A stretch of 52,991 bases of DNA, taken from positions 1 to 52,991 of the forward strand of contig NZ_JACAOY010000008.1 in assembly GCF_013385985.1 (NCBI RefSeq), written 5' to 3'. The DNA comes from Pseudomonas sp. B6002 (GTDB lineage Bacteria > Pseudomonadota > Gammaproteobacteria > Pseudomonadales > Pseudomonadaceae). Position 1 is the first letter of the stretch. The number at the start of each line of letters is the position of its first letter. The notes below the pieces were generated by a model. It was not told where the DNA came from and ran no database searches. It saw only the letters and a list, made by a program, of their open reading frames with translations. This document shows positions 32,010 to 42,008 of the stretch, in pieces. The position numbers and the translations under genes are program-made.

Positions 32010-32936
32010 GTGCCCATGTCCATTTCATCCCCGTTGTTGCGTCTGTTGCTGGTCGGCCTTATCAGCCTGATGCTCACCCCCCTGGCGAACGCCGAGGCGG
32101 CCAAGCGCCTGCGAATCGGCATCACCCTGCACCCTTATTACAGCTACGTGGCCAATATCGTCGGCGACAAGGCCGACGTGGTGCCGTTGATCCCGGCCGG
32201 CTTCAACCCCCATGCCTACGAACCGCGCGCCGAAGACATCAAGCGCATCGGCACCCTGGACGTGATCGTGCTAAACGGCGTCGGCCATGACGACTTCGCC
32301 GACCGCATGATCGCCACCAGCGAGCGTCCGGACATCCCGGTGATCGAAGCCAACGCCAACGTGCCGTTGCTGGCGGCCACCGGTAACGCGGCGCGTGGCG
32401 CAGGCAAGGTGGTCAACCCGCACACCTTTTTGTCGATCAGTGCCTCGATTGCCCAGGTGAACAACATCGCCCGCGAACTGGGCAAGCTCGACCCGGACAA
32501 CGCCAAGACCTACACCCAGAACGCCCGCGCCTACGGCAAACGCCTGCGCCAGATGCGCGCCGATGCACTGGCCAAGTTGACCAGCGCGCCGAACCCGGAC
32601 CTGCGTGTGGCCACCGTGCACGCGGCCTACGATTACCTGCTGCGCGAGTTTGGCCTGGAAGTGACGGCCGTGGTCGAACCGGCCCACGGCATCGAGCCCA
32701 GCCCCAGCCAGCTGAAAAAGACCATCGACGAACTGCGCGCCCTGGATGTGAAGGTGATCTTCTCGGAGATGGATTTCCCGTCCACCTATGTCGACACCAT
32801 CCAGCGTGAGTCGGGGGTCAAGCTGTACCCGCTTTCGCATATCTCCTACGGCGAATACACCCCTGAAAAGTACGAAGTGGAGATGACCGGCAACCTCAAC
32901 ACGGTGGTGCGGGCCATCCAGGAGTCAGGCTCATGA
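32010..32936 (+). CDS. fpvC: FpvC, periplasmic metal-binding protein
   Basis: This 308-residue cluster-9 (ZnuA/PsaA-type) binding protein has a Sec signal to about residue 29. Metal-ligand motifs are HPYYSY near the start of the mature protein, PAGFNPHAYEPRAEDI, VHAAYDYL and FSEMDFPS, supplying the usual His/His/Glu/Asp set. In the fpv operon FpvC is thought to receive iron released from pyoverdine and to pass it to FpvDE. It overlaps fpvD by ATGA. Its His set is intact, unlike the second binding protein FpvF. Confidence 0.88.
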   Translation: MPMSISSPLLRLLLVGLISLMLTPLANAEAAKRLRIGITLHPYYSYVANIVGDKADVVPLIPAGFNPHAYEPRAEDIKRIGTLDVIVLNGVGHDDFADRMIATSERPDIPVIEANANVPLLAATGNAARGAGKVVNPHTFLSISASIAQVNNIARELGKLDPDNAKTYTQNARAYGKRLRQMRADALAKLTSAPNPDLRVATVHAAYDYLLREFGLEVTAVVEPAHGIEPSPSQLKKTIDELRALDVKVIFSEMDFPSTYVDTIQRESGVKLYPLSHISYGEYTPEKYEVEMTGNLNTVVRAIQESGS

Positions 32937-33679
32937 CCGCGGCCGAACACCTGAGCGTGGCCAGCGTTGGCCCGACCCTCGACTTCGACGCGGTGTCGCT
33001 GACCCTGGGCCGCACCACCATCCTGGACGGCGTGAAATTCCAGGTACAGCCCGGCAGCATCCATGCGTTGGTGGGCCCGAACGGCGGCGGCAAAAGCTCG
33101 CTGATCAAGACCCTGCTGGGGCAGACGCCGCATCAGGGCCAACTGCGCCTGCACTGGCCGACTACGCCCGGCACCATCGGCTACGTGCCCCAGGCGCTGG
33201 AGTTTGACCGGGGCCTACCCATGACCGTCGACGACTTCATGGCCGCCATGTGCCAGCGCCGCCCGGCATTTCTCGGGCTATCGCGGCACTACGCCGGGGC
33301 GATTGGCGATGCGCTGGAGCGTGTCGGCATGCAGGACAAGCGCAAACGCCGCATGGGCGCGCTGTCTGGCGGTGAACGCCAGCGCGTGCTGCTGGCCCAG
33401 GGCTTGATCCCGGCGCCGCAACTGCTGGTACTGGATGAGCCGATGTCGGCACTCGACGAGGCAGGGATCCAGGTGTTCGAACGCCTGCTCAATGACTGGC
33501 GCCTGGCCGGCATCACCGTGTTGTGGATCGAGCATGACCTGGAAGCCGTGGGCCGCCTGGCCGATCGCGTCACCGGCCTGAACCGTCGCGTGCTGTTCGA
33601 CGCTACGCCGAAGGAAGCGTTGACCCCGGACCGCCTGCTGACCCTGTTCTCCACCCACCCTCGGAGCCCGGTGCAATGA
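32933..33679 (+). CDS. fpvD: FpvD, ABC transporter ATPase
   Basis: The 248-residue ATPase has Walker A (GPNGGGKSS), Q-loop region (GYVPQALEFDRG), signature (LSGGERQRVLLAQGL), Walker B (LLVLDEPMSALDE) and H-loop (WIEHDLEAV), all intact. It belongs to the metal-chelate branch that pairs with ABC-3 permeases. It overlaps both fpvC and fpvE by 4 bp. It energises uptake of pyoverdine-derived iron into the cytoplasm. Confidence 0.88.
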   Translation: MTAAEHLSVASVGPTLDFDAVSLTLGRTTILDGVKFQVQPGSIHALVGPNGGGKSSLIKTLLGQTPHQGQLRLHWPTTPGTIGYVPQALEFDRGLPMTVDDFMAAMCQRRPAFLGLSRHYAGAIGDALERVGMQDKRKRRMGALSGGERQRVLLAQGLIPAPQLLVLDEPMSALDEAGIQVFERLLNDWRLAGITVLWIEHDLEAVGRLADRVTGLNRRVLFDATPKEALTPDRLLTLFSTHPRSPVQ

Positions 33680-34575
33680 GTTATGAAGCGTTTCGCCTGA
33701 TGGTCCAGGGCTGGGCTTCTTCCGGATACCTGCCGGAAGCGCTGGCCTATGGTTTTGTGGTCAACGCCCTGCTCGCCGGCCTGCTGATCGGCCCGGTACT
33801 GGGCGGCCTGGGTACGTTGGTGGTGGTCAAGCGCTTTGCGTTTTTCTCCGAAGCGGTCGGCCACGCGGCACTCACCGGCGTGGCCGTCGGCATCCTGCTG
33901 GGTGAACCCTACACCGGGCCCTATGGCGCCCTGTTCGGGTACTGCCTGCTGTTCGGCATCCTGCTCAACTACCTGCGCAACCGCACCGGGTTGGCGCCCG
34001 ACACCTTGATCGGCGTGTTCCTCTCGGTGTCCCTGGCCCTGGGCGCCAGCCTGCTGCTGATCCTGGCGGGCAAGATCAACGTGCATATTCTGGAGAACGT
34101 ACTGTTCGGTTCGGTGTTGACGGTGAATGGCAACGATCTGCTGGTGCTGGCGGTTGTTGGCTCGCTGGTCATGGCGTTGGCGTTGCCGCTGTACAACCGC
34201 ATCATGCTTGCCAGCTTCAATCCGCAACTGGCGGCGGTGCGCGGGGTGGCAGTGAAAACCCTGGATTATCTGTTTGTGATCCTGGTGACGTTGATCACCG
34301 TGGCGGCGGTCAAGGTCATCGGCGCGATCCTGGTGGGCGCCCTGCTGGTCATCCCCGCCGCCGCCGCGCGCCTGCTGAGCCAGTCGCTCAAGGGTTTCTT
34401 CTGGATCTCGGTGATCATTGCCACGGTCAGCACGCTGTGCGGGATCCTGCTGCCGATCATCTTCGACCTGCCCATCCCGTCCGGTGCCGCGATCATCCTC
34501 GTGGCCGGTATCGCCTTCGCCTTTGCCGCCATTGCGCGCGGCACCGTGCCCAGCCTCAAAGGGAATCTTGGATAA
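33676..34575 (+). CDS. fpvE: FpvE, ABC-3 permease
   Basis: The 299-residue protein has eight or so membrane helices and the ABC-3 family landmarks KRFAFFSEAVGHAALTGVAVG and IGAILVGALLVIPAAAARLL. It is the permease partner of FpvD. Its TAA stop overlaps the fpvF ATG by one base, so translation is coupled. Confidence 0.88.
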   Translation: MSYEAFRLMVQGWASSGYLPEALAYGFVVNALLAGLLIGPVLGGLGTLVVVKRFAFFSEAVGHAALTGVAVGILLGEPYTGPYGALFGYCLLFGILLNYLRNRTGLAPDTLIGVFLSVSLALGASLLLILAGKINVHILENVLFGSVLTVNGNDLLVLAVVGSLVMALALPLYNRIMLASFNPQLAAVRGVAVKTLDYLFVILVTLITVAAVKVIGAILVGALLVIPAAAARLLSQSLKGFFWISVIIATVSTLCGILLPIIFDLPIPSGAAIILVAGIAFAFAAIARGTVPSLKGNLG

Positions 34576-35489
34576 TGCGCTCCATTCTTCATCCTATGGC
34601 CCTGGCCATCGCTTGTTTGTTCACCACGCCACTGATGGCGGCTGAGGCGGCCAAACCGGTTGCCCAAGCGGCAAAACCCGTCAAGGTACTGGCCTCGTTG
34701 CCTATCACCTATGGCCTGGCTGAAGTGCTGCTCAAAGGCACCGCCGTACAGCTCGAACGCGCCGCCCCGGCCAACCTGCCCGGTTCGCGGCAAGTGTCCT
34801 ATTTCACCGGCCGTGGCGCACCGGCGCTGAGCAAGCTGGCGCAGGACGCCGACGCCGCCATTGGCTTGCGTTCGCTGTGGGCGGATGACCCGCTGTACCC
34901 GGTGGCGCGGCGCAGCAATATCCGCATCGTCGAAGTGGATGCCGCACGCCCGGTGGACGGCGGTTTGCCGGGCATTGCCGTGCAACCCGGCAGCACCGAT
35001 GGCCTGAACAGCCAGCCGTGGCAATCGAGCAACAACCTGGGGCGTATGGCCGACGTGCTCGCCGCCGACCTCAGCCGCCTGGCGCCCGACGCCAAGCCCA
35101 CGATCGACGCCAACCTCGCCGCCCTCAAGCAACGCCTGCTCAAGCTCACCGCAGACAGCGAAGCGCGGCTGGCCAAGGCGGACAACCTCACGGTGGTCAG
35201 TTTGAGCGATCATTTCGCCTACCTGGTCAGCAGCCTGAACCTGGAATTAGTGAGCACAGATGCACGGCCGGACGCCGACTGGACGCCCGAGGCCTTGCAA
35301 AAGCTCAGTGCCGAATTGAAGGAGAACGACGTGGCGGTGGTGTTGCACCATCGACAGCCGAGTGAGGCGGTGAAGGCGGCCATCGAGGCAGGCGGCTCGC
35401 AATTACTGGTCTTGAACGTAGACGGCGCAGACCCGGTGGAGGAACTCACCACCAACACCGACTCACTGATCAAAGCCCTGACACCTTAA
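34575..35489 (+). CDS. fpvF: FpvF, second periplasmic binding protein of the pyoverdine ABC system
   Basis: The ATG at 34575 shares a base with the fpvE stop. The 304-residue protein has a Sec signal (ending near LMAAEAAKP) and the cluster-9 fold, but it lacks the His-rich metal motifs of FpvC: the equivalent of NPHAYEP reads LPGSRQVSYFTG. It may therefore bind a siderophore or partner protein rather than bare metal. In P. aeruginosa FpvF associates with FpvC and ferripyoverdine, which agrees. It is last in the operon; a REPIN follows within 5 bp. Confidence 0.86.
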   Translation: MRSILHPMALAIACLFTTPLMAAEAAKPVAQAAKPVKVLASLPITYGLAEVLLKGTAVQLERAAPANLPGSRQVSYFTGRGAPALSKLAQDADAAIGLRSLWADDPLYPVARRSNIRIVEVDAARPVDGGLPGIAVQPGSTDGLNSQPWQSSNNLGRMADVLAADLSRLAPDAKPTIDANLAALKQRLLKLTADSEARLAKADNLTVVSLSDHFAYLVSSLNLELVSTDARPDADWTPEALQKLSAELKENDVAVVLHHRQPSEAVKAAIEAGGSQLLVLNVDGADPVEELTTNTDSLIKALTP

Positions 35490-35492
35490 CCT

Positions 35493-35576
35493 TGTAGGAG
35501 CCGGCTTGCCGGCGATGGCGTCCCTAACATCGCCGCCAAATCTGAAGGCCTCATCGCCGGCAAGCCGGCTCCTACA
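35493..35576. repeat. REPIN between fpvF and the GntR/UTRA gene
   Basis: TGTAGGAGCCGGCTTGCCGG faces its exact reverse complement, with about 44 bp between. It lies four bases after the fpvF stop, between convergent genes. Confidence 0.88.
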
Positions 35577-35591
35577 GGGAATGTGGCGTGA

Positions 35592-36305
35592 TTAAGCGAC
35601 GTCGACACCGACGTGGATGGCGTCATGCCGCCAGAACTCCAGATCGCAGTCGATCAAGCGCTGATGCTGATCGTAATTGACCCGGGCAATGCGCAAGCCC
35701 GGGCTGCCCACCGACACGCGCAACGCGGCGGCGGCTTCCACGGGCAGAGACGTCGGCACAATTTCAAAACGCACCCGCCCGTAGTGCAAGTCATATTGAC
35801 GGGCATAGAGTTCGGTCATCGACTGATTCAGGTCGCACTCCAGAATCCCCGGAAAATACTGCGGGTTGAGGTAGTGCTCCACATACAGCACTAAACGCCC
35901 ATCAATGCGCCGGCCCCGGCACACCTGGATCACGCTGGACAATGCCGGCAACTGCAACCACGCACACACCGCTGCCGACGCCGGCTGCAGCCGCGCGGAA
36001 ATCACCTCGGTGGACGGCACCCGCCCCTGGTCGCTGACCATCGCGTGAAAGTGGCTGCGCTGCATCAGGTTATAGGCCAGCCGGGGTGGCGAGACAAACC
36101 AGCCGCGGCGCTCCTCGCGATAGATCTGCCCCTGGGCCTCCAGCTGTAACAAGGCTTCCCGCACCGTAATGCGAGTGGTACCAAACAACTCGCTGAGCTT
36201 TCGCTCGGCGGGCAATTTACTCGCAGGCGGCAACAGGCCATGGTCGATCTGCTCTTGCAGCGCCAGGCCGATGGATGTCACCGCCTTGATTGCCTCATCA
36301 CGCAT
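35592..36305 (-). CDS. GntR/UTRA regulator of the phosphorus-acquisition cluster (PhnF-like)
   Basis: The ATG at 36303-36305 is preceded by AGGTAAC; an adjacent TTG is less likely. The 237-residue protein has a GntR winged helix (PASKLPAERKLSELFGTTRITVREAL then GQIYREERRGWFVSPPR, landmarks only) and a UTRA ligand domain (ISARLQPASAAVCAWLQL onward, VLYVEHYLNPQYFPGILE). PhnF and PhnR of phosphonate systems are of this type. It is divergent from the transport operon. Two operator-like palindromes lie between the genes, one just 14 bp upstream of its own start. It probably represses both directions until an organophosphorus ligand binds. Confidence 0.85.
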   Translation of the reverse strand: MRDEAIKAVTSIGLALQEQIDHGLLPPASKLPAERKLSELFGTTRITVREALLQLEAQGQIYREERRGWFVSPPRLAYNLMQRSHFHAMVSDQGRVPSTEVISARLQPASAAVCAWLQLPALSSVIQVCRGRRIDGRLVLYVEHYLNPQYFPGILECDLNQSMTELYARQYDLHYGRVRFEIVPTSLPVEAAAALRVSVGSPGLRIARVNYDQHQRLIDCDLEFWRHDAIHVGVDVA

Positions 36306-36318
36306 CAATGTTACCTAT

Positions 36319-36332
36319 CTGGACTAGACCAG
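36319..36332. promoter_or_regulatory. Operator-like palindrome at the GntR/UTRA gene
   Basis: CTGGACTAGACCAG is a palindrome with one mismatch and closely resembles TGGTATAGACCA, reported for mycobacterial PhnF. It would lie in the 5' leader of the regulator mRNA and allow autorepression. Confidence 0.6.
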
Positions 36333-36401
36333 CACCGCTTCGGTGCACAAACCGCGCTCTATCAGGGCTTGAGCTGTTGCCTGCCAGCCTAGGCATTACA
36401 G

Positions 36402-36419
36402 ATGACCGACAGATGACAG
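36402..36419 (-). promoter_or_regulatory. Pho box facing the GntR/UTRA gene
   Basis: Minus-strand CTGTCAT-CTGT-CGGTCAT matches the Pho box (CTGTCAT-N4-CTGTCAT) at 13 of 14 half-site positions with correct spacing. A -10-like TAGGCT lies 10 nt downstream. It suggests PhoB activation of the regulator gene. Confidence 0.65.
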
Positions 36420-36539
36420 CCCCTCTCACGCCCCTGCCCCACACTCTGCAATACATCGGCCAAGTCGAGTGCCTGCGGGCATTTGGGCATGGTCTACGCT
36501 AACTCTGCGACGAGCGACATCCGCGATTTAAAAACGACA

Positions 36540-36573
36540 TCGACATGAAACTGTCATCAGGCACGCCTAGATT
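36540..36573 (+). promoter_or_regulatory. Pho-box promoter of the transport operon
   Basis: TCGACAT-GAAA-CTGTCAT (36540-36557) has a perfect second half and a 4/7 first half. Ten bases later TAGATT (36568-36573) can act as -10, the spacing typical of PhoB-activated promoters. Transcription would start near 36580, and the operator at 36588 would cover it. Positions 36306-36656 contain no gene. Confidence 0.6.
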
Positions 36574-36587
36574 GGCTCAGGTATTGC

Positions 36588-36599
36588 TGACCTAGACCA
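36588..36599. promoter_or_regulatory. Operator-like site before the transport operon
   Basis: TGACCTAGACCA shares CTAGACCA with the site at 36319 and resembles the PhnF operator. Its place just after the predicted transcription start suits a repressor. Confidence 0.55.
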
Positions 36600-36656
36600 A
36601 CACCACCGCAAACGTCGACAAAAACGCAGCGTTGAAAACGCCCAAAGGAGCTTCGG

Positions 36657-37733
36657 ATGAAACAGCTTTTCCTGGCATCACTGTTAGGCTCGACCATTGC
36701 CATGTGCACCGCCGCCATGGCTGCTGATACCGATTTGAAAACCCTGGAAGCTGCCGCGAAAGCGGAAGGCGCCGTCAACAGCGTCGGCATGCCCGATGAC
36801 TGGGCCAACTGGAAAGGCACCTGGGAAGACCTGGCCAAGACCTACGGCCTCAAGCACATCGACACCGACATGAGTTCGGCCCAGGAAATCGCCAAGTTCA
36901 AGGCTGAAAAAGACAACGCCAGCGCCGACATCGGCGACGTGGGCGCAGCGTTCGGTCCGATTGCGGTGAAGCAAGATGTGACCCAGCCGTACAAACCGTC
37001 CACCTGGGCCCAGGTGCCGGATTGGGCAAAAGACAAGGACGGTCACTGGGCGCTGGCCTACACCGGCACCATCGCCTTTATCGTCAACAAGAAGCTGCTG
37101 CACGGTTCGGAAGTGCCCACCAGCTGGGCTGACCTGCAAAAAGGCAAATACAAGGTCTCAATCGGTGACGTGAGCACCGCGGCCCAGGCGGCCAACGGCG
37201 TACTGGCCGCCGCCATCGCCAATAAAGGCGACGAAAAGAACATCGCCCCAGGCCTGCAGTTCTTCACCAAGATCGCCCAGCAAGGCCGTCTCTCGCTGTC
37301 CAACCCGACCATCGCCACCATGGAAAAAGGCGAAGTCGAAGTGGGCGTGGTCTGGGACTTCAACGGCCTGAGCTACAAGGCCAAGATGGCCAACCCGGAT
37401 GACTACGTGGTGCTGATCCCATCGGACGGTTCGGTGAAGTCCGGCTACACCACCATCATCAACAAATACGCCAAGCACCCGAACGCCGCCAAGCTGACCC
37501 GCGAATACATCTTCAGTGATGCCGGCCAACTCAACCTGGCCAAGGGCAATGCGCGTCCTATCCGTGCTGAAACCGACCTGAAACTGCCGGCCGATATCGC
37601 CAAGAACCTGATCCCGGGCGAGCAGTACACCAAGGCCAATCCGCAGCCGATCAAGGATGCCGATGCCTGGGAAGCGACTTCCAAGAAGCTGCCTCAGCTG
37701 TGGAACGAGCAAGTCATCGTAGAAATGAAGTAA
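36657..37733 (+). CDS. Periplasmic solute-binding protein of the phosphorus-linked ABC importer
   Basis: The 358-residue protein has a Sec signal (MKQLFLASLLGSTIAMCTAAMA, 22 residues, cleaved before ADT) and a type-II binding-protein body of the Fe3+/spermidine/2-aminoethylphosphonate group (GAVNSVGMPDDWANWKGTW; YTGTIAFIVNKKLLHG; KGEVEVGVVWDFNGL). AAAGGAG lies just before the ATG. It heads the operon, which continues after a REPIN with the phosphatase-superfamily enzyme, permeases and ATPase. A phosphonate or phosphate-ester ligand is inferred from the regulator and Pho boxes, not read from the pocket. Confidence 0.82.
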   Translation: MKQLFLASLLGSTIAMCTAAMAADTDLKTLEAAAKAEGAVNSVGMPDDWANWKGTWEDLAKTYGLKHIDTDMSSAQEIAKFKAEKDNASADIGDVGAAFGPIAVKQDVTQPYKPSTWAQVPDWAKDKDGHWALAYTGTIAFIVNKKLLHGSEVPTSWADLQKGKYKVSIGDVSTAAQAANGVLAAAIANKGDEKNIAPGLQFFTKIAQQGRLSLSNPTIATMEKGEVEVGVVWDFNGLSYKAKMANPDDYVVLIPSDGSVKSGYTTIINKYAKHPNAAKLTREYIFSDAGQLNLAKGNARPIRAETDLKLPADIAKNLIPGEQYTKANPQPIKDADAWEATSKKLPQLWNEQVIVEMK

Positions 37734-37761
37734 TCAGGCTCACTGCCTGAAATGCGGCCGG

Positions 37762-37851
37762 TGTGGGAGCTGGCTTGCCTGCGATAGCGGTCTGACATTC
37801 AGCCTCTATGTCGACTGATACGCCGCTATCGCAGGCAAGCCAGCTCCCACA
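37762..37851. repeat. REPIN inside the phosphorus-linked operon
   Basis: TGTGGGAGCTGGCTTGCCTG faces its exact complement with about 50 bp between. It lies between the abundant binding-protein gene and the rest of the operon, where it could stabilise the upstream mRNA. Confidence 0.88.
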
Positions 37852-37912
37852 TTTTGACCCGGTTACGCCAGAGAATTTGAGTCAAACCACCTGTTGCGGA
37901 GCTCCAGCCCCC

Positions 37913-38719
37913 ATGAAGCACAATGTCATCCTTGTCGTGCTCGACGGCCTGAACTTCGAGGTTGCGCGGCACGCCATGGGGCACTTGCAGGCCTATGTCG
38001 GCGCAGGACGCGCAGCGCTCTACAAGCTGGAATGTGAACTGCCCGCCCTGTCCCGCCCGTTGTATGAATGCATCCTGACCGGCGTGCCACCGATCCAGAG
38101 CGGTATCGTGCACAACCATGTTTCGCGCCTGTCCAACCAACGCAGCATTTTCCATTACGCCACCGACGCCGGCCTCACCACAGCGGCGGCGGCCTACCAC
38201 TGGGTCAGCGAGTTGTATAACCGCACGCCCTTTATCGCCGCCCGTGATCGTCATACCGACGACAAGGCGCTGGCGATCCAGCACGGGCATTTCTACTGGA
38301 ATGACCACTACCCCGATTCCCACCTGTTCGCCGATGCCGAAAGCCTGCGCCGCAAACACGCGCCGAACTTCCTGGTGGTGCACCCGATGAACATCGACGA
38401 CGCCGGGCACAAGCACGGCCTCGACACGCCGCAGTACCGCAACAGCGCACGCTCGGCCGACATCATCCTCGCCGACTACCTGCAAGGCTGGCTCGACGCC
38501 GGCTACCAGGTGCTGGTGACGGCCGACCATGGCATGAACAGCGACCGCTCCCACAACGGCCTGCTGCCGGAAGAGCGCGAAGTGCCGTTGTTCGTCCTTG
38601 GCGATGCCTTCAGCCTGGAGGCCAATGCCGCGCCCCGGCAGACCGAACTGTGCGGCACCGTCTGCGAATTGCTGGGCGTGCCCCACGACAAACCTGTATG
38701 CCGGGAGCTGTTGAAATGA
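37913..38719 (+). CDS. Alkaline-phosphatase-superfamily (NPP/PhnA-like) hydrolase with serine nucleophile position
   Basis: The ATG at 37913 has CGGAG upstream. The 268-residue protein has no signal peptide, so it acts in the cytoplasm on imported substrate. Two-metal site residues are D11 (VVLDGLN), D162 and H166 (NIDDAGHKH), D205 and H206 (TADHGMN) and H214 (DRSHNG). The nucleophile position, 36 residues after the first Asp as in Xanthomonas NPP (D54/T90), is S47 in ALSRPLYECILTG where NPP and phosphonoacetate hydrolase have Thr. It may be a phosphate mono- or diesterase or a C-P hydrolase. Its stop overlaps the permease ATG. Confidence 0.8.
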   Translation: MKHNVILVVLDGLNFEVARHAMGHLQAYVGAGRAALYKLECELPALSRPLYECILTGVPPIQSGIVHNHVSRLSNQRSIFHYATDAGLTTAAAAYHWVSELYNRTPFIAARDRHTDDKALAIQHGHFYWNDHYPDSHLFADAESLRRKHAPNFLVVHPMNIDDAGHKHGLDTPQYRNSARSADIILADYLQGWLDAGYQVLVTADHGMNSDRSHNGLLPEEREVPLFVLGDAFSLEANAAPRQTELCGTVCELLGVPHDKPVCRELLK

Positions 38720-39552
38720 CCCGTGGTAAATGGCTGGCGCTGCTGTGCCTGGTGCCGTTCGCGCTGTTCTTTATCGTGTTCGAAATTGCCCCGCTGGTGT
38801 GGGTGCTGATCAACAGCCTGCAAACCGAGGAAGCCGGTTGGGGCCTGGAAAACTTCACGCGCATCTTCAGCTCGAAGTTCTACCTGCAAGCCATCCAGTT
38901 CAGCCTGGAGATCAGCTTCTATTCCAGTGTCTTCGGCATCATCATCGCCACGCTGGGCAGCTACTCCCTGCGCCGGGTGGATTCGCCGCTGCGCAATTTC
39001 GTCACCGCCTTCGCCAACATGACCAGCAACTTTGCCGGCGTGCCCCTGGCGTTCGCGTTCATCATCCTGCTGGGGTTCAACGGCAGCATCACCCTGATGC
39101 TCAAGCAGGCCGGGATCATCCAGGACTTCAACCTGTATTCCAAAACCGGCTTGATCATCCTGTACACCTACTTCCAGATTCCCCTCGGTGTGTTGCTGCT
39201 GTACCCGGCCTTCGATGCACTGCGTGAAGACTGGCGCGAGTCGGCTGCCCTGCTGGGCGCCAATGGCTGGCAGTTCTGGCGGCATATCGGCTTGCCGGTG
39301 CTCACGCCTGCGCTGCTGGGCACCTTCGTGATCCTGCTGGCGAACGCGCTGGGCGCCTACGCCACGGTGTATGCACTGACCACCGGCAATTTCAACGTAC
39401 TGCCGATCCGCATCGCGGGCCTGGTCTCCGGCGACGTGTCACTGGACCCGAACATGGCCAGCGCCCTGGCCGTGGTGCTGGTGGCGCTGATGACCGTGGT
39501 CACCGTGGTCCATCAACTGCTGCTCAAGAGGAGCTACCATGTCTCGCGCTGA
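38716..39552 (+). CDS. ABC importer permease 1
   Basis: The start ATG overlaps the phosphatase stop by 4 bp. The 278-residue protein has six membrane helices and the EAA-type loop REDWRESAALLGANGWQFWRHIGLPVL near residue 180. It belongs to the PotB/ThiP-like permease family used by polyamine, iron and aminoethylphosphonate importers. It pairs with the second permease, whose start overlaps its end by 14 bp. Confidence 0.86.
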   Translation: MTRGKWLALLCLVPFALFFIVFEIAPLVWVLINSLQTEEAGWGLENFTRIFSSKFYLQAIQFSLEISFYSSVFGIIIATLGSYSLRRVDSPLRNFVTAFANMTSNFAGVPLAFAFIILLGFNGSITLMLKQAGIIQDFNLYSKTGLIILYTYFQIPLGVLLLYPAFDALREDWRESAALLGANGWQFWRHIGLPVLTPALLGTFVILLANALGAYATVYALTTGNFNVLPIRIAGLVSGDVSLDPNMASALAVVLVALMTVVTVVHQLLLKRSYHVSR

Positions 39553-40339
39553 AGCCGGCCCGGCCACCCTCTACCATCGGGTAGTGGTGTACCTGTTGTT
39601 CCTGATCCTGGTATTGCCGCTGGTGGGCACCTTTGTCTACTCCATTGCGAGCAGTTGGTCGGCCACCGTGCTGCCGGCCGGCTTTACCGTGAAATGGTAT
39701 GTGCAACTGTGGAGCGACCCGCGCTTCCTGGCCGCCTTCGGCCAGTCGCTGCTGGTGTGCGTGGGTGCGCTGATTCTGTCAGTGGTGTTGATTTTGCCGC
39801 TGCTGTTCGTAGTGCATTACCACTTCCCCAGGCTCGACGCCTTGATGAACATCCTGATCCTGCTGCCCTTCGCGGTGCCGCCGGTAGTGTCGTCGGTAGG
39901 CCTGCTGCAACTGTACGGCTCCGGGCCGTTAGCGATGGTGGGCACGCCGTGGATATTGATCGGTTGCTACTTCACCGTGGCGCTGCCGTTCATGTACCGC
40001 GCGATCACCAACAACCTGCAAGCCATCAACCTGCGTGACCTGATGGACGCCTCCCAACTGCTCGGCGCCAGCACCTGGCAGGCCGCGATCCTGGTGGTGC
40101 TGCCCAACCTGCGCAAAGGCCTGATGGTTGCCCTGCTGCTGTCGTTCTCGTTCCTGTTCGGCGAGTTCGTGTTCGCCAACATCCTGGTAGGCACCCGCTA
40201 CGAGACCCTGCAGGTGTACCTCAACAATATGCGCAACAGCAGCGGCCACTTCACCAGTGCCGTCGTCATTTCCTATTTCTTCTTTGTGCTGGTGCTGACC
40301 TGGGCCGCCAATATCTTGAACAAGGACAAAAGCCAATGA
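39539..40339 (+). CDS. ABC importer permease 2
   Basis: The 266-residue protein has six predicted helices and the EAA loop NLRDLMDASQLLGASTWQAAILVVLP around residues 160-186, the PotC-like partner of permease 1. AAGAGGAG lies just before the ATG. The ATPase gene begins within its last codon (4-bp overlap), which indicates coupled translation of the membrane complex. Confidence 0.86.
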   Translation: MSRAEAGPATLYHRVVVYLLFLILVLPLVGTFVYSIASSWSATVLPAGFTVKWYVQLWSDPRFLAAFGQSLLVCVGALILSVVLILPLLFVVHYHFPRLDALMNILILLPFAVPPVVSSVGLLQLYGSGPLAMVGTPWILIGCYFTVALPFMYRAITNNLQAINLRDLMDASQLLGASTWQAAILVVLPNLRKGLMVALLLSFSFLFGEFVFANILVGTRYETLQVYLNNMRNSSGHFTSAVVISYFFFVLVLTWAANILNKDKSQ

Positions 40340-41325
40340 GCTTCGTCAGCGTCCAACATTTGCAAAAAGGCTACGCCGGCACCCCGGTGTTCAGCGACAT
40401 CAACTGCGAAATCGCCAAGGGCGAATTCGTCACCCTGCTCGGCCCGTCCGGTTGCGGCAAGTCCACCCTGCTGCGTTGCATCGCCGGCCTCACGCCGGTG
40501 GACAGCGGAAAAATCCTGCTGGATGGCCAAGACATTGTTCCGCTCAGCCCGCAGAAACGACACATCGGCATGGTGTTCCAGAGCTACGCGCTGTTCCCCA
40601 ACATGACCGTGGAACAGAACGTCGCCTTTGGCCTGCGCATGCAAAAGGTCAACGCCGACGACAGCCACAAGCGCGTGCAGGAAGTGCTGCAACTGGTCGA
40701 ACTCAAGGACCTGGCCGGCCGCTACCCGCACCAGATGTCCGGTGGCCAATGCCAACGCGTGGCCCTCGCCCGCTCGCTGGTCACCCGCCCACGCCTGCTG
40801 CTGCTCGATGAACCGCTGTCGGCGCTGGATGCAAGGATTCGCAAGCACCTGCGCGAACAGATCCGCCACATCCAGCGTGAACTGGGGCTGACCACCATCT
40901 TCGTGACCCACGACCAGGAAGAAGCCCTGACCATGTCTGACCGGATCTTTCTGATGAACCAGGGCAAGATCGTGCAGAGCGGCGACGCCGAAACCCTCTA
41001 CACCGCCCCGGTGGATGTGTTCGCGGCGGGCTTTATCGGCAACTACAACCTGCTGGACGCCGACAAGGCCACTCAACTGCTGCAACGCCCGATCAACAGC
41101 CGCATCGCCATTCGCCCGGAAGCCATCGAGCTGAGCCGCAGCGGCGAACTCGACGCGCTGGTGCGCAGCCATAGCCTGCTGGGCAACGTAATCCGCTATC
41201 GCATCGAGGCGCGCGGCGTGGAGTTGGTGGTGGACGTGCTCAACCGTTCGGCCGACGACCTGCACCCGGACGGGCAACGCCTGGCACTGTCCATCGACCC
41301 AAGTGCCTTGTGTGAAGTAGCCTGA
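40336..41325 (+). CDS. ABC importer ATPase
   Basis: The 329-residue ATPase has Walker A (GPSGCGKST), Q-loop (VFQSYALFPNMTVEQN), signature (MSGGQCQRVALARSL, Met for the usual Leu), Walker B (LLLLDEPLSALD) and H-loop (FVTHDQEEALTMSD). A TOBE-like C-terminal domain from about 235 (NSRIAIRPEAIELS) is typical of PotA/FbpC/PhnT proteins. It completes the importer with the two permeases and the binding protein. Confidence 0.88.
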   Translation: MSFVSVQHLQKGYAGTPVFSDINCEIAKGEFVTLLGPSGCGKSTLLRCIAGLTPVDSGKILLDGQDIVPLSPQKRHIGMVFQSYALFPNMTVEQNVAFGLRMQKVNADDSHKRVQEVLQLVELKDLAGRYPHQMSGGQCQRVALARSLVTRPRLLLLDEPLSALDARIRKHLREQIRHIQRELGLTTIFVTHDQEEALTMSDRIFLMNQGKIVQSGDAETLYTAPVDVFAAGFIGNYNLLDADKATQLLQRPINSRIAIRPEAIELSRSGELDALVRSHSLLGNVIRYRIEARGVELVVDVLNRSADDLHPDGQRLALSIDPSALCEVA

Positions 41326-41354
41326 TGCAACGATTGATTGAGAGAGCGTGACCG

Positions 41355-42008
41355 ATGGCATTGGTAATTTTTGATCTGGACGACACCCTCATCCACGGTG
41401 ACTGCGCCACCCTGTGGAGCGAGCAGATGGGCCGCCTGGGCTGGGTCGACCCCGAGTCGTTCATGCGCAAGAACAACGAACTGATGGACGCCTACAGCCA
41501 GGGCAAGCTGCTGATGGAAGACTTCATGACCTTCAGCCTGGAGCCGATGATTGGCCGCACACCGGAAGAAATCGAACACCTGGTGGAGCCGTGGGTCGAG
41601 GACGTGATCGAGCCGCTGATCTACAGCGATGCCACCAAGACCATCGCGCGCCACCGGGCCAATGGCGACCGGATCCTGGTGATTTCGGCGTCGGGCACGC
41701 ATTTGGTCAAGCCGATTGCCGCGCGCATCGGCATCGACGAAGTGCTGGGGATCGATCTGGACGTCAGCCATGGCGTGTACAGCGGCCAGACCGTGGGCGT
41801 ACTGACTTACCGCGAAGGCAAGATCACCCGCTTGCTGGAATGGCTGGAACAGGAAGGCGAGACGTTGGACGGCGCGTATTTCTATTCGGATTCGCGCAAT
41901 GACTTACCATTGCTGAGCAAGGTGGAGTACCCGCAGGTGGTGAACCCGGATCCGGTACTGCGCGAGCACGCGGAAAAGGCCGGCTGGCCGATCCACCACT
42001 GGGTCTGA
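41355..42008 (+). CDS. HAD-IB phosphatase (SerB-like)
   Basis: This 217-residue HAD hydrolase has motif I D7-x-D9-x-T11 (VIFDLDDTLIHGD), motif II VISASGTH, the motif III lysine region (YREGKITRLL) and motif IV (FYSDSRNDLPLL). The helical cap resembles phosphoserine-phosphatase-like subfamily IB. It lies 29 bp after the ATPase and is probably the last gene of the operon. It may dephosphorylate the imported compound or a product of the upstream hydrolase. It is cytoplasmic. A REPIN follows. Confidence 0.86.
   Translation: MALVIFDLDDTLIHGDCATLWSEQMGRLGWVDPESFMRKNNELMDAYSQGKLLMEDFMTFSLEPMIGRTPEEIEHLVEPWVEDVIEPLIYSDATKTIARHRANGDRILVISASGTHLVKPIAARIGIDEVLGIDLDVSHGVYSGQTVGVLTYREGKITRLLEWLEQEGETLDGAYFYSDSRNDLPLLSKVEYPQVVNPDPVLREHAEKAGWPIHHWV

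Follow-up and report, generated by a model that had tools for sequence, protein, structure and literature searches.

Several described systems resemble in part the locus reported here. Salmonella PhnRSTUV is one of them, which we take to be an uptake system for 2-aminoethylphosphonate (2AEP). In Pseudomonas putida BIRD-1, AepSTU is an auxiliary 2AEP transporter, whose binding protein AepS (earlier PhnD3) is PPUBIRD1_3891 (PMC8316502). In Escherichia coli, UgpBAECQ is an ATP-binding cassette (ABC) importer of a phosphodiester, regulated by inorganic phosphate (Pi), that comes with its own cytosolic phosphodiesterase (PMC5438359). The present locus occupies positions 35592-42008 of the window, which is the whole stretch of 52,991 nucleotides analysed from Pseudomonas sp. 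B6002 (genome of 6.68 Mb; closest named matches include P. libanensis, P. extremorientalis and P. marginalis). By domain profile searches, it holds an operon of six genes and, divergent from it, a GntR/UTRA regulator; the seven genes listed by the initial annotation were all called and matched to domains. We give a probability of about 0.55 to the reading that this is a Pi-starvation operon, under PhoB and PhnR-like control, whose products import an intact diester, cleave it and dephosphorylate the product with a HAD enzyme.

Relation to the AepSTU Locus

The operon opens with the gene of an AepS-like periplasmic binding protein (36657-37733, plus strand; PF13343, 101.8 bits), which has a signal-peptide-like start. 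With its two permeases and ATPase, and with a GntR regulator alongside, it reproduces the gene layout of AepSTU. In BIRD-1, the tags 3890 (GntR regulator), 3891 (binding protein) and 3895 (ATPase) are given in Table 2 of PMC5082522, and both their spacing and their gene types match the present gene order exactly. Furthermore, the B6002 genome has 8 UTRA and 20 PF13343 matches, which are neighbours only here. As the tag spacing fits and such neighbours occur only at this place, locus-tag order makes the present locus probably the orthologue of the BIRD-1 AepSTU locus. The initial annotation knew of no characterised system with this gene set, which was wrong for the transporter (PMC8316502). What is already known is therefore the transporter, in one species, and the new part is the two enzymes that travel with the importer. 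Neither "phosphodiesterase" nor "phosphatase" occurs in the main text of PMC8316502, and a limited literature search found no published function for either enzyme gene.

In the PDB, the binding protein has its best homologue in 5t1p (452 bits), the next one reaching 42 bits. Its scores against PhnS and PhnS2 (45.3 and 45.7 bits) do not reach the cut-offs of 395.3 and 392.75, and its predicted structure was too poor to use (mean predicted local distance difference test score, pLDDT, of 53.4). P. aeruginosa PA3249-PA3255 and P. putida KT2440 PP_1726 are presumably orthologues of the locus. PA3250 is listed in a Pi-starvation exoproteome, and PP1726 stands at -25.0 in a published table.

The Two Hydrolases

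The second gene of the operon (37913-38719, plus strand) encodes a hydrolase of the alkaline phosphatase superfamily, 268 amino acids long, which matches PF01663 with 69.6 bits (gathering score 23). D11, S47, D162, H166, D205, H206 and H214 are invariant in 31 sequences; they are presumably the nucleophile and six metal ligands. The protein has the NPP fold and, among the structure matches listed, its nearest folds are NPP phosphodiesterases. It carries a serine at the aligned place of the nucleophile, where these phosphodiesterases have a threonine.

The last gene (41355-42008, plus strand) encodes a HAD-IB phosphatase (PF12710). It scores 160.4 bits against TIGR01490 (HAD-IB), above the cut-off of 98.3, and holds the DxDxT and DxxND motifs as DLDDT and DSRND. 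Its score against the histidinol-phosphatase model NF052360 (219.2 bits) stays under the cut-off of 280. By eye, a signal-peptide-like stretch opens the binding protein and none was seen in the NPP-fold enzyme or the HAD protein, so the chemistry should be cytoplasmic, after import. This gene set would be consistent with a two-step dephosphorylation.

Conservation and Gene Neighbourhoods

The NPP-fold enzyme was found in 35 of 37 genomes of the same genus, that of the window included, and in one of the 21 others in the draw of relatives. At an E value of 0.001, it matched in 26 of 369 genomes drawn from the class and in 59 of 398 drawn from the phylum, many of these being weak superfamily matches. 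The seven genes stand in the same order in 33 of the 34 other same-genus loci fetched (in the exception, L182, there is no HAD match and the contig ends there) and in all six further loci of the same family. The co-conservation that the initial annotation proposed as a check is therefore found, as is its pairing of the importer with a HAD phosphatase and an enzyme of the alkaline phosphatase superfamily that is apparently cytoplasmic.

The cluster also occurs in genomes with various equipment for the cleavage of carbon-phosphorus (C-P) bonds. Among 35 cluster-bearing genomes of the genus, PhnX exceeds its cut-off in 23, PhnJ in five more and neither in seven. In none of these seven does PhnA or Phn-HD exceed its cut-off, three having weak matches below it, and all seven carry the seven genes in order. 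Because these 7 of 35 genomes lack all four C-P routes tested, the operon probably frees phosphate there by its own enzymes, unless another C-P route exists.

Outside the family, 16 distinct loci pair the enzyme with an AepSTU-type importer: L119 (copy L125), L120, L121, L126, L135, L136, L138, L140, L199 and L208-L214. Eleven of them have a HAD-IB gene in line, while genes on the opposite strand encode a HAD-IA protein in L126 and a PHP-type protein in Enterococcus faecium. Other loci join the enzyme to other partners. In L127, L128, L133, L137 and L139, where its identity is 46-67%, no AepSTU-type importer was found in the stretch read; in L139, the enzyme and a HAD-IB gene adjoin an Opp-type importer and, in L137, the enzyme adjoins a Na/Pi symporter, with PsiE nearby. 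In 13 distant loci (28-36% identity: L129, L131, L132, L145, L197, L198, L200-L205 and L216), it adjoins Opp/Dpp-type genes. In L131 and L200-L202, the genes of the Opp ATPase and the NPP-type enzyme are separated by a second gene for an Opp-type binding protein. No probe matched in L124, L130, L144, L206, L207 and L215 (28-36% identity; L215 begins at a contig start), nor in L134 (40% identity).

On a Labrenzia plasmid (L123:7254-9837), a LysR gene is followed by TmpA, TmpB and the NPP-type enzyme in one overlapping run. TmpA and TmpB score 577.5 and 351.8 bits (cut-offs 400 and 300), and the enzyme homologue has 34% identity. The run suggests that this homologue serves the use of trimethylaminoethylphosphonate. 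What is constant across loci is the NPP-fold enzyme, not the importer, and its partners vary: AepSTU-type importers in gammaproteobacteria and on Enterococcus plasmids, Opp/Dpp-type importers in more distant Pseudomonadota, Shinella plasmids among them, and TmpA-TmpB in Labrenzia.

Enterococcus accounts for 179 of the 198 plasmid records with an enzyme match. In the E. faecium plasmid stretches L119 and L125, the importer and enzyme genes are open and the PHP-type gene lies upstream on the other strand; downstream come broken HAD-IA and SufS-like fragments and transposase-like frames. The fragments that follow the ATPase, of a class V aminotransferase and a HAD protein, had been considered as a phosphonatase (PhnW/PhnX) pair. 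This was dropped because the short frames resemble, by eye, a cysteine desulfurase of the SufS type and a protein of the HAD-IA class.

Promoter Region and Regulator

The gap between the divergent genes holds two candidate Pho boxes facing both ways, scored here against the PhoB consensus CTGTCAT-N4-CTGTCAT (14 positions). The box of the regulator promoter, CTGTCATCTGTCGGTCAT (36402-36419, minus strand), agrees at 13/14 positions and that of the operon promoter, TCGACATGAAACTGTCAT (36540-36557, plus strand), at 11/14. Ten nucleotides downstream of each lies a -10-like element, TAGGCT (36386-36391, minus strand) and TAGATT (36568-36573, plus strand), respectively. Two candidate operators of the TAGACCA type follow. 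Operator 1, TGGACTAGACCA (36320-36331), fits the palindrome TGGTCTAGACCA at 11/12 positions and lies downstream of the regulator promoter. Operator 2, TGACCTAGACCA (36588-36599), fits it at 10/12 and starts 14 nucleotides after the operon -10 element, a position that would be well suited to blocking RNA polymerase. The palindrome is close to the operator of mycobacterial PhnF, which we take to be TGGTATAGACCA.

When the gap was shuffled 1000 times by dinucleotides, no shuffle reached the score of the minus box and 0.4% reached that of the plus box. Genome-wide, only two places have at most one mismatch to the PhoB consensus, the minus box and the pstS-pstC gap (pst genes recognized by eye). 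Promoter conservation was followed in 41 regions, one per genome, with 4100 shuffles as control. When the best site anywhere in the region is taken, the plus box reaches at least 10/14 in 34 regions, the minus box at least 11/14 in 35, and both do so in 31. Two operators (TGGnCTAGACCA type, at least 10/12) are present in 41/41 regions. Both boxes appeared in 0.15% of the shuffles and two operators in none. If the plus box is counted only at the homologous place before the operator, 33/41 regions have it and 30/41 have both boxes. The distance from the start of the plus box to the operator is 48 nucleotides in 37/41 regions and 49-50 in the other 4/41, and TA stands 10 nucleotides after the box in 41/41 regions on the plus side and 37/41 on the minus side. 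The thresholds for boxes and operators were chosen after a first look at the data, and the 41 genomes come from relatives; the counts therefore measure conservation and do not stand for independent trials. In an alignment of eight sequences, each side runs from Pho box to -10 element to downstream operator, and CTAGACCA is invariant at operator 2. The two-way boxes with their -10 elements and the paired palindromes of the initial annotation are thus found and conserved, and shuffles, alignment, genome scan and regional counts all speak for its dual layout of PhoB activation and repression.

The operator motif is not enriched genome-wide, since nine palindromic places have at most one mismatch to TGGTCTAGACCA, versus 17 for a backward control pattern; operator 2, with two mismatches, falls outside the nine. 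No second target of the regulator was found in the genome, the only other CTAG-centred place lying, by eye, inside an FlhB-like gene.

The regulator itself (35592-36308, minus strand; PF00392 and PF07702) is of the GntR/UTRA, HutC-type class. It had been labelled PhnF-like, which is not borne out by the profiles: with 291.1 bits against PhnR (TIGR03337), under the cut-off of 296.75, and 99.3 against PhnF (TIGR02325; cut-off 156.8), it is by these scores PhnR-like, closer to PhnR than to PhnF.

Operon Structure and Gene Starts

The enzyme stop codon overlaps the start of the first permease gene (38716-39552; PF00528) in ATGA. The second permease gene (39539-40339; PF00528) overlaps the preceding frame by 14 bases and the ATPase gene (40336-41325; PF00005 and TOBE_2) by 4, all on the plus strand. 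The best NCBIfam match of the second permease is PhnV (TIGR03255), with 88.7 bits and a cut-off of 358.7 not reached; the ATPase has 377.3 bits against PhnT2 (TIGR03265; cut-off 457.7).

Between the binding-protein and enzyme genes lies a REPIN-like inverted repeat with perfect arms of 29 nucleotides (37762-37851), of which an arm 25-mer occurs, with at most two mismatches, at 387 + 386 = 773 genomic places. The repeat creates a false start codon that adds 35 codons to the enzyme frame. The ATG at 37808, which opens a frame of 303 amino acids, falls within this repeat, and of 35 other matching genomes 26 show similarity only from residue 27 of that frame or later. The true start of the enzyme is therefore most likely ATG 37913, and the longer frame would be over-long. 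A second REPIN-like inverted repeat (35490-35579) lies beside the end of the regulator gene. Next to it, znuC, znuB and ZnuA-like genes (32933-35489, recognized by eye) adjoin the operon, whose NPP-fold enzyme should need zinc.

Proposed Mechanism and Points against It

Under Pi starvation, phosphorylated PhoB would bind the boxes, which stand in place of -35 elements, and turn on both divergent promoters. The PhnR-like UTRA repressor, bound to the downstream operators, may hold these promoters until a phosphorylated effector appears. The AepSTU-type ABC importer would then carry a small organophosphorus diester whole into the cytoplasm, where the NPP-fold hydrolase could cut one ester bond through a phospho-enzyme at Ser47, as its residues and fold suggest, and the HAD-IB enzyme would remove phosphate from the monoester product. 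The best candidate for the substrate is a diester whose head group is of the aminoethyl type, for example glycerophosphoethanolamine or a 2-aminoethylphosphonate ester.

Published proteomes of BIRD-1 bear on the control by PhoB. Under Pi depletion, PPUBIRD1_3890 (GntR) is up 3.57 log2 and _3895 (ATPase) 4.72, and neither protein was detected in phoBR (PMC5082522, Table 2). The exoproteome level of PhnD3/AepS rises under Pi depletion in BIRD-1 and SBW25; it is reduced, yet still detected, in phoBR. In BIRD-1, PhoB control, as initially annotated, therefore stands for the regulator and the ATPase, whereas the binding protein is listed as unaffected by PhoBR (PMC5082522). That the regulator and the ATPase are silent in phoBR and the binding protein between them is not could be due to an internal signal downstream of the binding-protein gene or to a lost repressor.

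Several observations weigh against this mechanism. PPUBIRD1_3891 gives 2.69 log2 in the wild type versus 2.31 in phoBR (PMC5082522), and the 2021 paper calls AepS constitutive and, in its abstract, the three transporters including AepSTU phosphate-insensitive (PMC8316502). The link to BIRD-1 itself comes from locus-tag order, not from sequence comparison. Eleven of the 41 promoter regions do not have both boxes when the homologous place is required. Among the 16 loci outside the family, L121, L140 and L214 have no adjacent phosphatase in the stretch read, and one genus supplies seven (L136, L208-L213). The literature consulted gives no measured activity for either enzyme, and glycerophosphocholine, a diester, did not support growth of BIRD-1 wild type or of SBW25 and DSM4166 glpQ mutants.

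Alternative Explanations

The locus could be an auxiliary 2AEP importer only, with hydrolases that are incidental or act on 2AEP products made elsewhere. The PhnR-like regulator agrees with this, as does the BIRD-1 triple mutant (AepXVW, AepP, AepSTU), which cannot use 2AEP as sole phosphorus source; however, the single AepSTU mutant has the same Pi-sensitive growth as the wild type (PMC8316502). The BIRD-1 phnWX mutant does not grow on 2AEP as phosphorus, nitrogen or carbon source although it retains the transporters, so the two hydrolases free no phosphate from 2AEP there. With the seven genomes that lack the C-P routes tested, and both hydrolases beside the importer in 33 of the 34 loci fetched, we regard this explanation as unlikely.

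Equally doubtful is a reading of the operon as a phosphonate pathway of its own, in which the NPP-fold enzyme would cleave phosphonate monoesters or act as a new C-P hydrolase. The Labrenzia homologue directly after TmpA-TmpB, in overlapping frames, points in this direction, as do the regulator and the presence of phosphonoacetate hydrolases among the PDB profile matches of the enzyme. On the other hand, the enzyme scores 27.1 bits against the phosphonoacetate hydrolase model (PhnA, TIGR02335), whose cut-off of 407.55 is not reached, and its nearest listed folds are those of NPP phosphodiesterases; phosphonoacetate hydrolase is absent among the best 50 structure matches listed, though not thereby excluded. 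Among 47 loci probed, the TmpA and TmpB probes match only the Labrenzia locus from which they were taken, and the operon does not rescue the phnWX mutant on 2AEP.

It is very unlikely that the imported diester is glycerophosphocholine or some other common diester of phospholipid head groups. ENPP6, a choline-specific glycerophosphodiesterase, is among the structure matches listed, but the three strains that failed to grow on glycerophosphocholine, the sole diester tested there, include BIRD-1 and an SBW25 mutant, and PhnD3 is detected in both BIRD-1 and SBW25. These growth data make it an improbable substrate, although lack of induction could hide a capacity. Published mutants thus argue against both 2AEP itself and glycerophosphocholine as substrate.

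Finally, uptake of iron, sulfate or polyamine, which some database names, weak PDB matches to iron-binding proteins, the inclusion of iron and sulphate binders in PF13343 (PMC8316502) and the Fe3+ annotation in BIRD-1 (PMC5082522) would suggest, was dropped as highly improbable given the Pho boxes and PhnR/PhnF-type operators at the promoters, the transport of 2AEP by AepSTU (PMC8316502), the two phosphate-ester-type hydrolases of the operon and the match of the binding protein to 5t1p, far above the next homologue.

Comparison with Known Systems

An import-then-hydrolyse operon can be compared with several described systems. PDB entry 5t1p, to which the binding protein is most similar, is presumably a Campylobacter jejuni protein, from a locus whose gene order we take to be Cj0727-Cj0733. 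A published list of biofilm-regulated clusters names cj0727-cj0732 as an operon without assigned function and also names pstABC, and Cj0732 and PhoX are both reported as up in chicken-juice biofilm. Compared with Xac NPP, ENPP6 and ENPP7, the present enzyme differs by its serine instead of threonine nucleophile, its length of 268 amino acids, the absence of a visible signal peptide and an identity of about 20%.

Tentatively, the NPP-fold enzyme may represent a family, so far unrecognised, of hydrolases that act in the cytoplasm on phosphonate esters (or esters of aminoalcohol phosphates) taken up whole by bacteria. If so, these esters would form a natural class of phosphorus nutrients that still awaits description. 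The published 2AEP role is seen only in a triple mutant and leaves the two hydrolases unexplained. Once identified, the substrate would be a further source in the organic phosphorus cycle, and a widespread branch of the alkaline phosphatase superfamily, also present on many Enterococcus plasmids, would gain a function.

Salmonella PhnRSTUV has a regulator near which the present UTRA protein falls, and permeases and an ATPase of the same broad family. However, the present regulator, binding protein, permeases and ATPase are all below the curated cut-offs, and the present cluster has NPP-fold and HAD-IB hydrolases and no phosphonatase. AepSTU of BIRD-1 shares the GntR regulator, the PF13343 binding protein and the ATPase in matching order, as well as the response to Pi, but the publications, as far as consulted, treat the transporter only (PMC8316502, PMC5082522).

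The resemblance to E. coli UgpBAECQ is one of principle, a Pi-regulated importer of a diester coupled to a cytosolic phosphodiesterase. UgpQ is a GDPD protein, whereas the present enzyme has the alkaline-phosphatase/NPP fold and is accompanied by a HAD phosphatase and a UTRA regulator. By this analogy, the whole locus would follow the Ugp principle of import before hydrolysis, with other enzymes and under a UTRA regulator.

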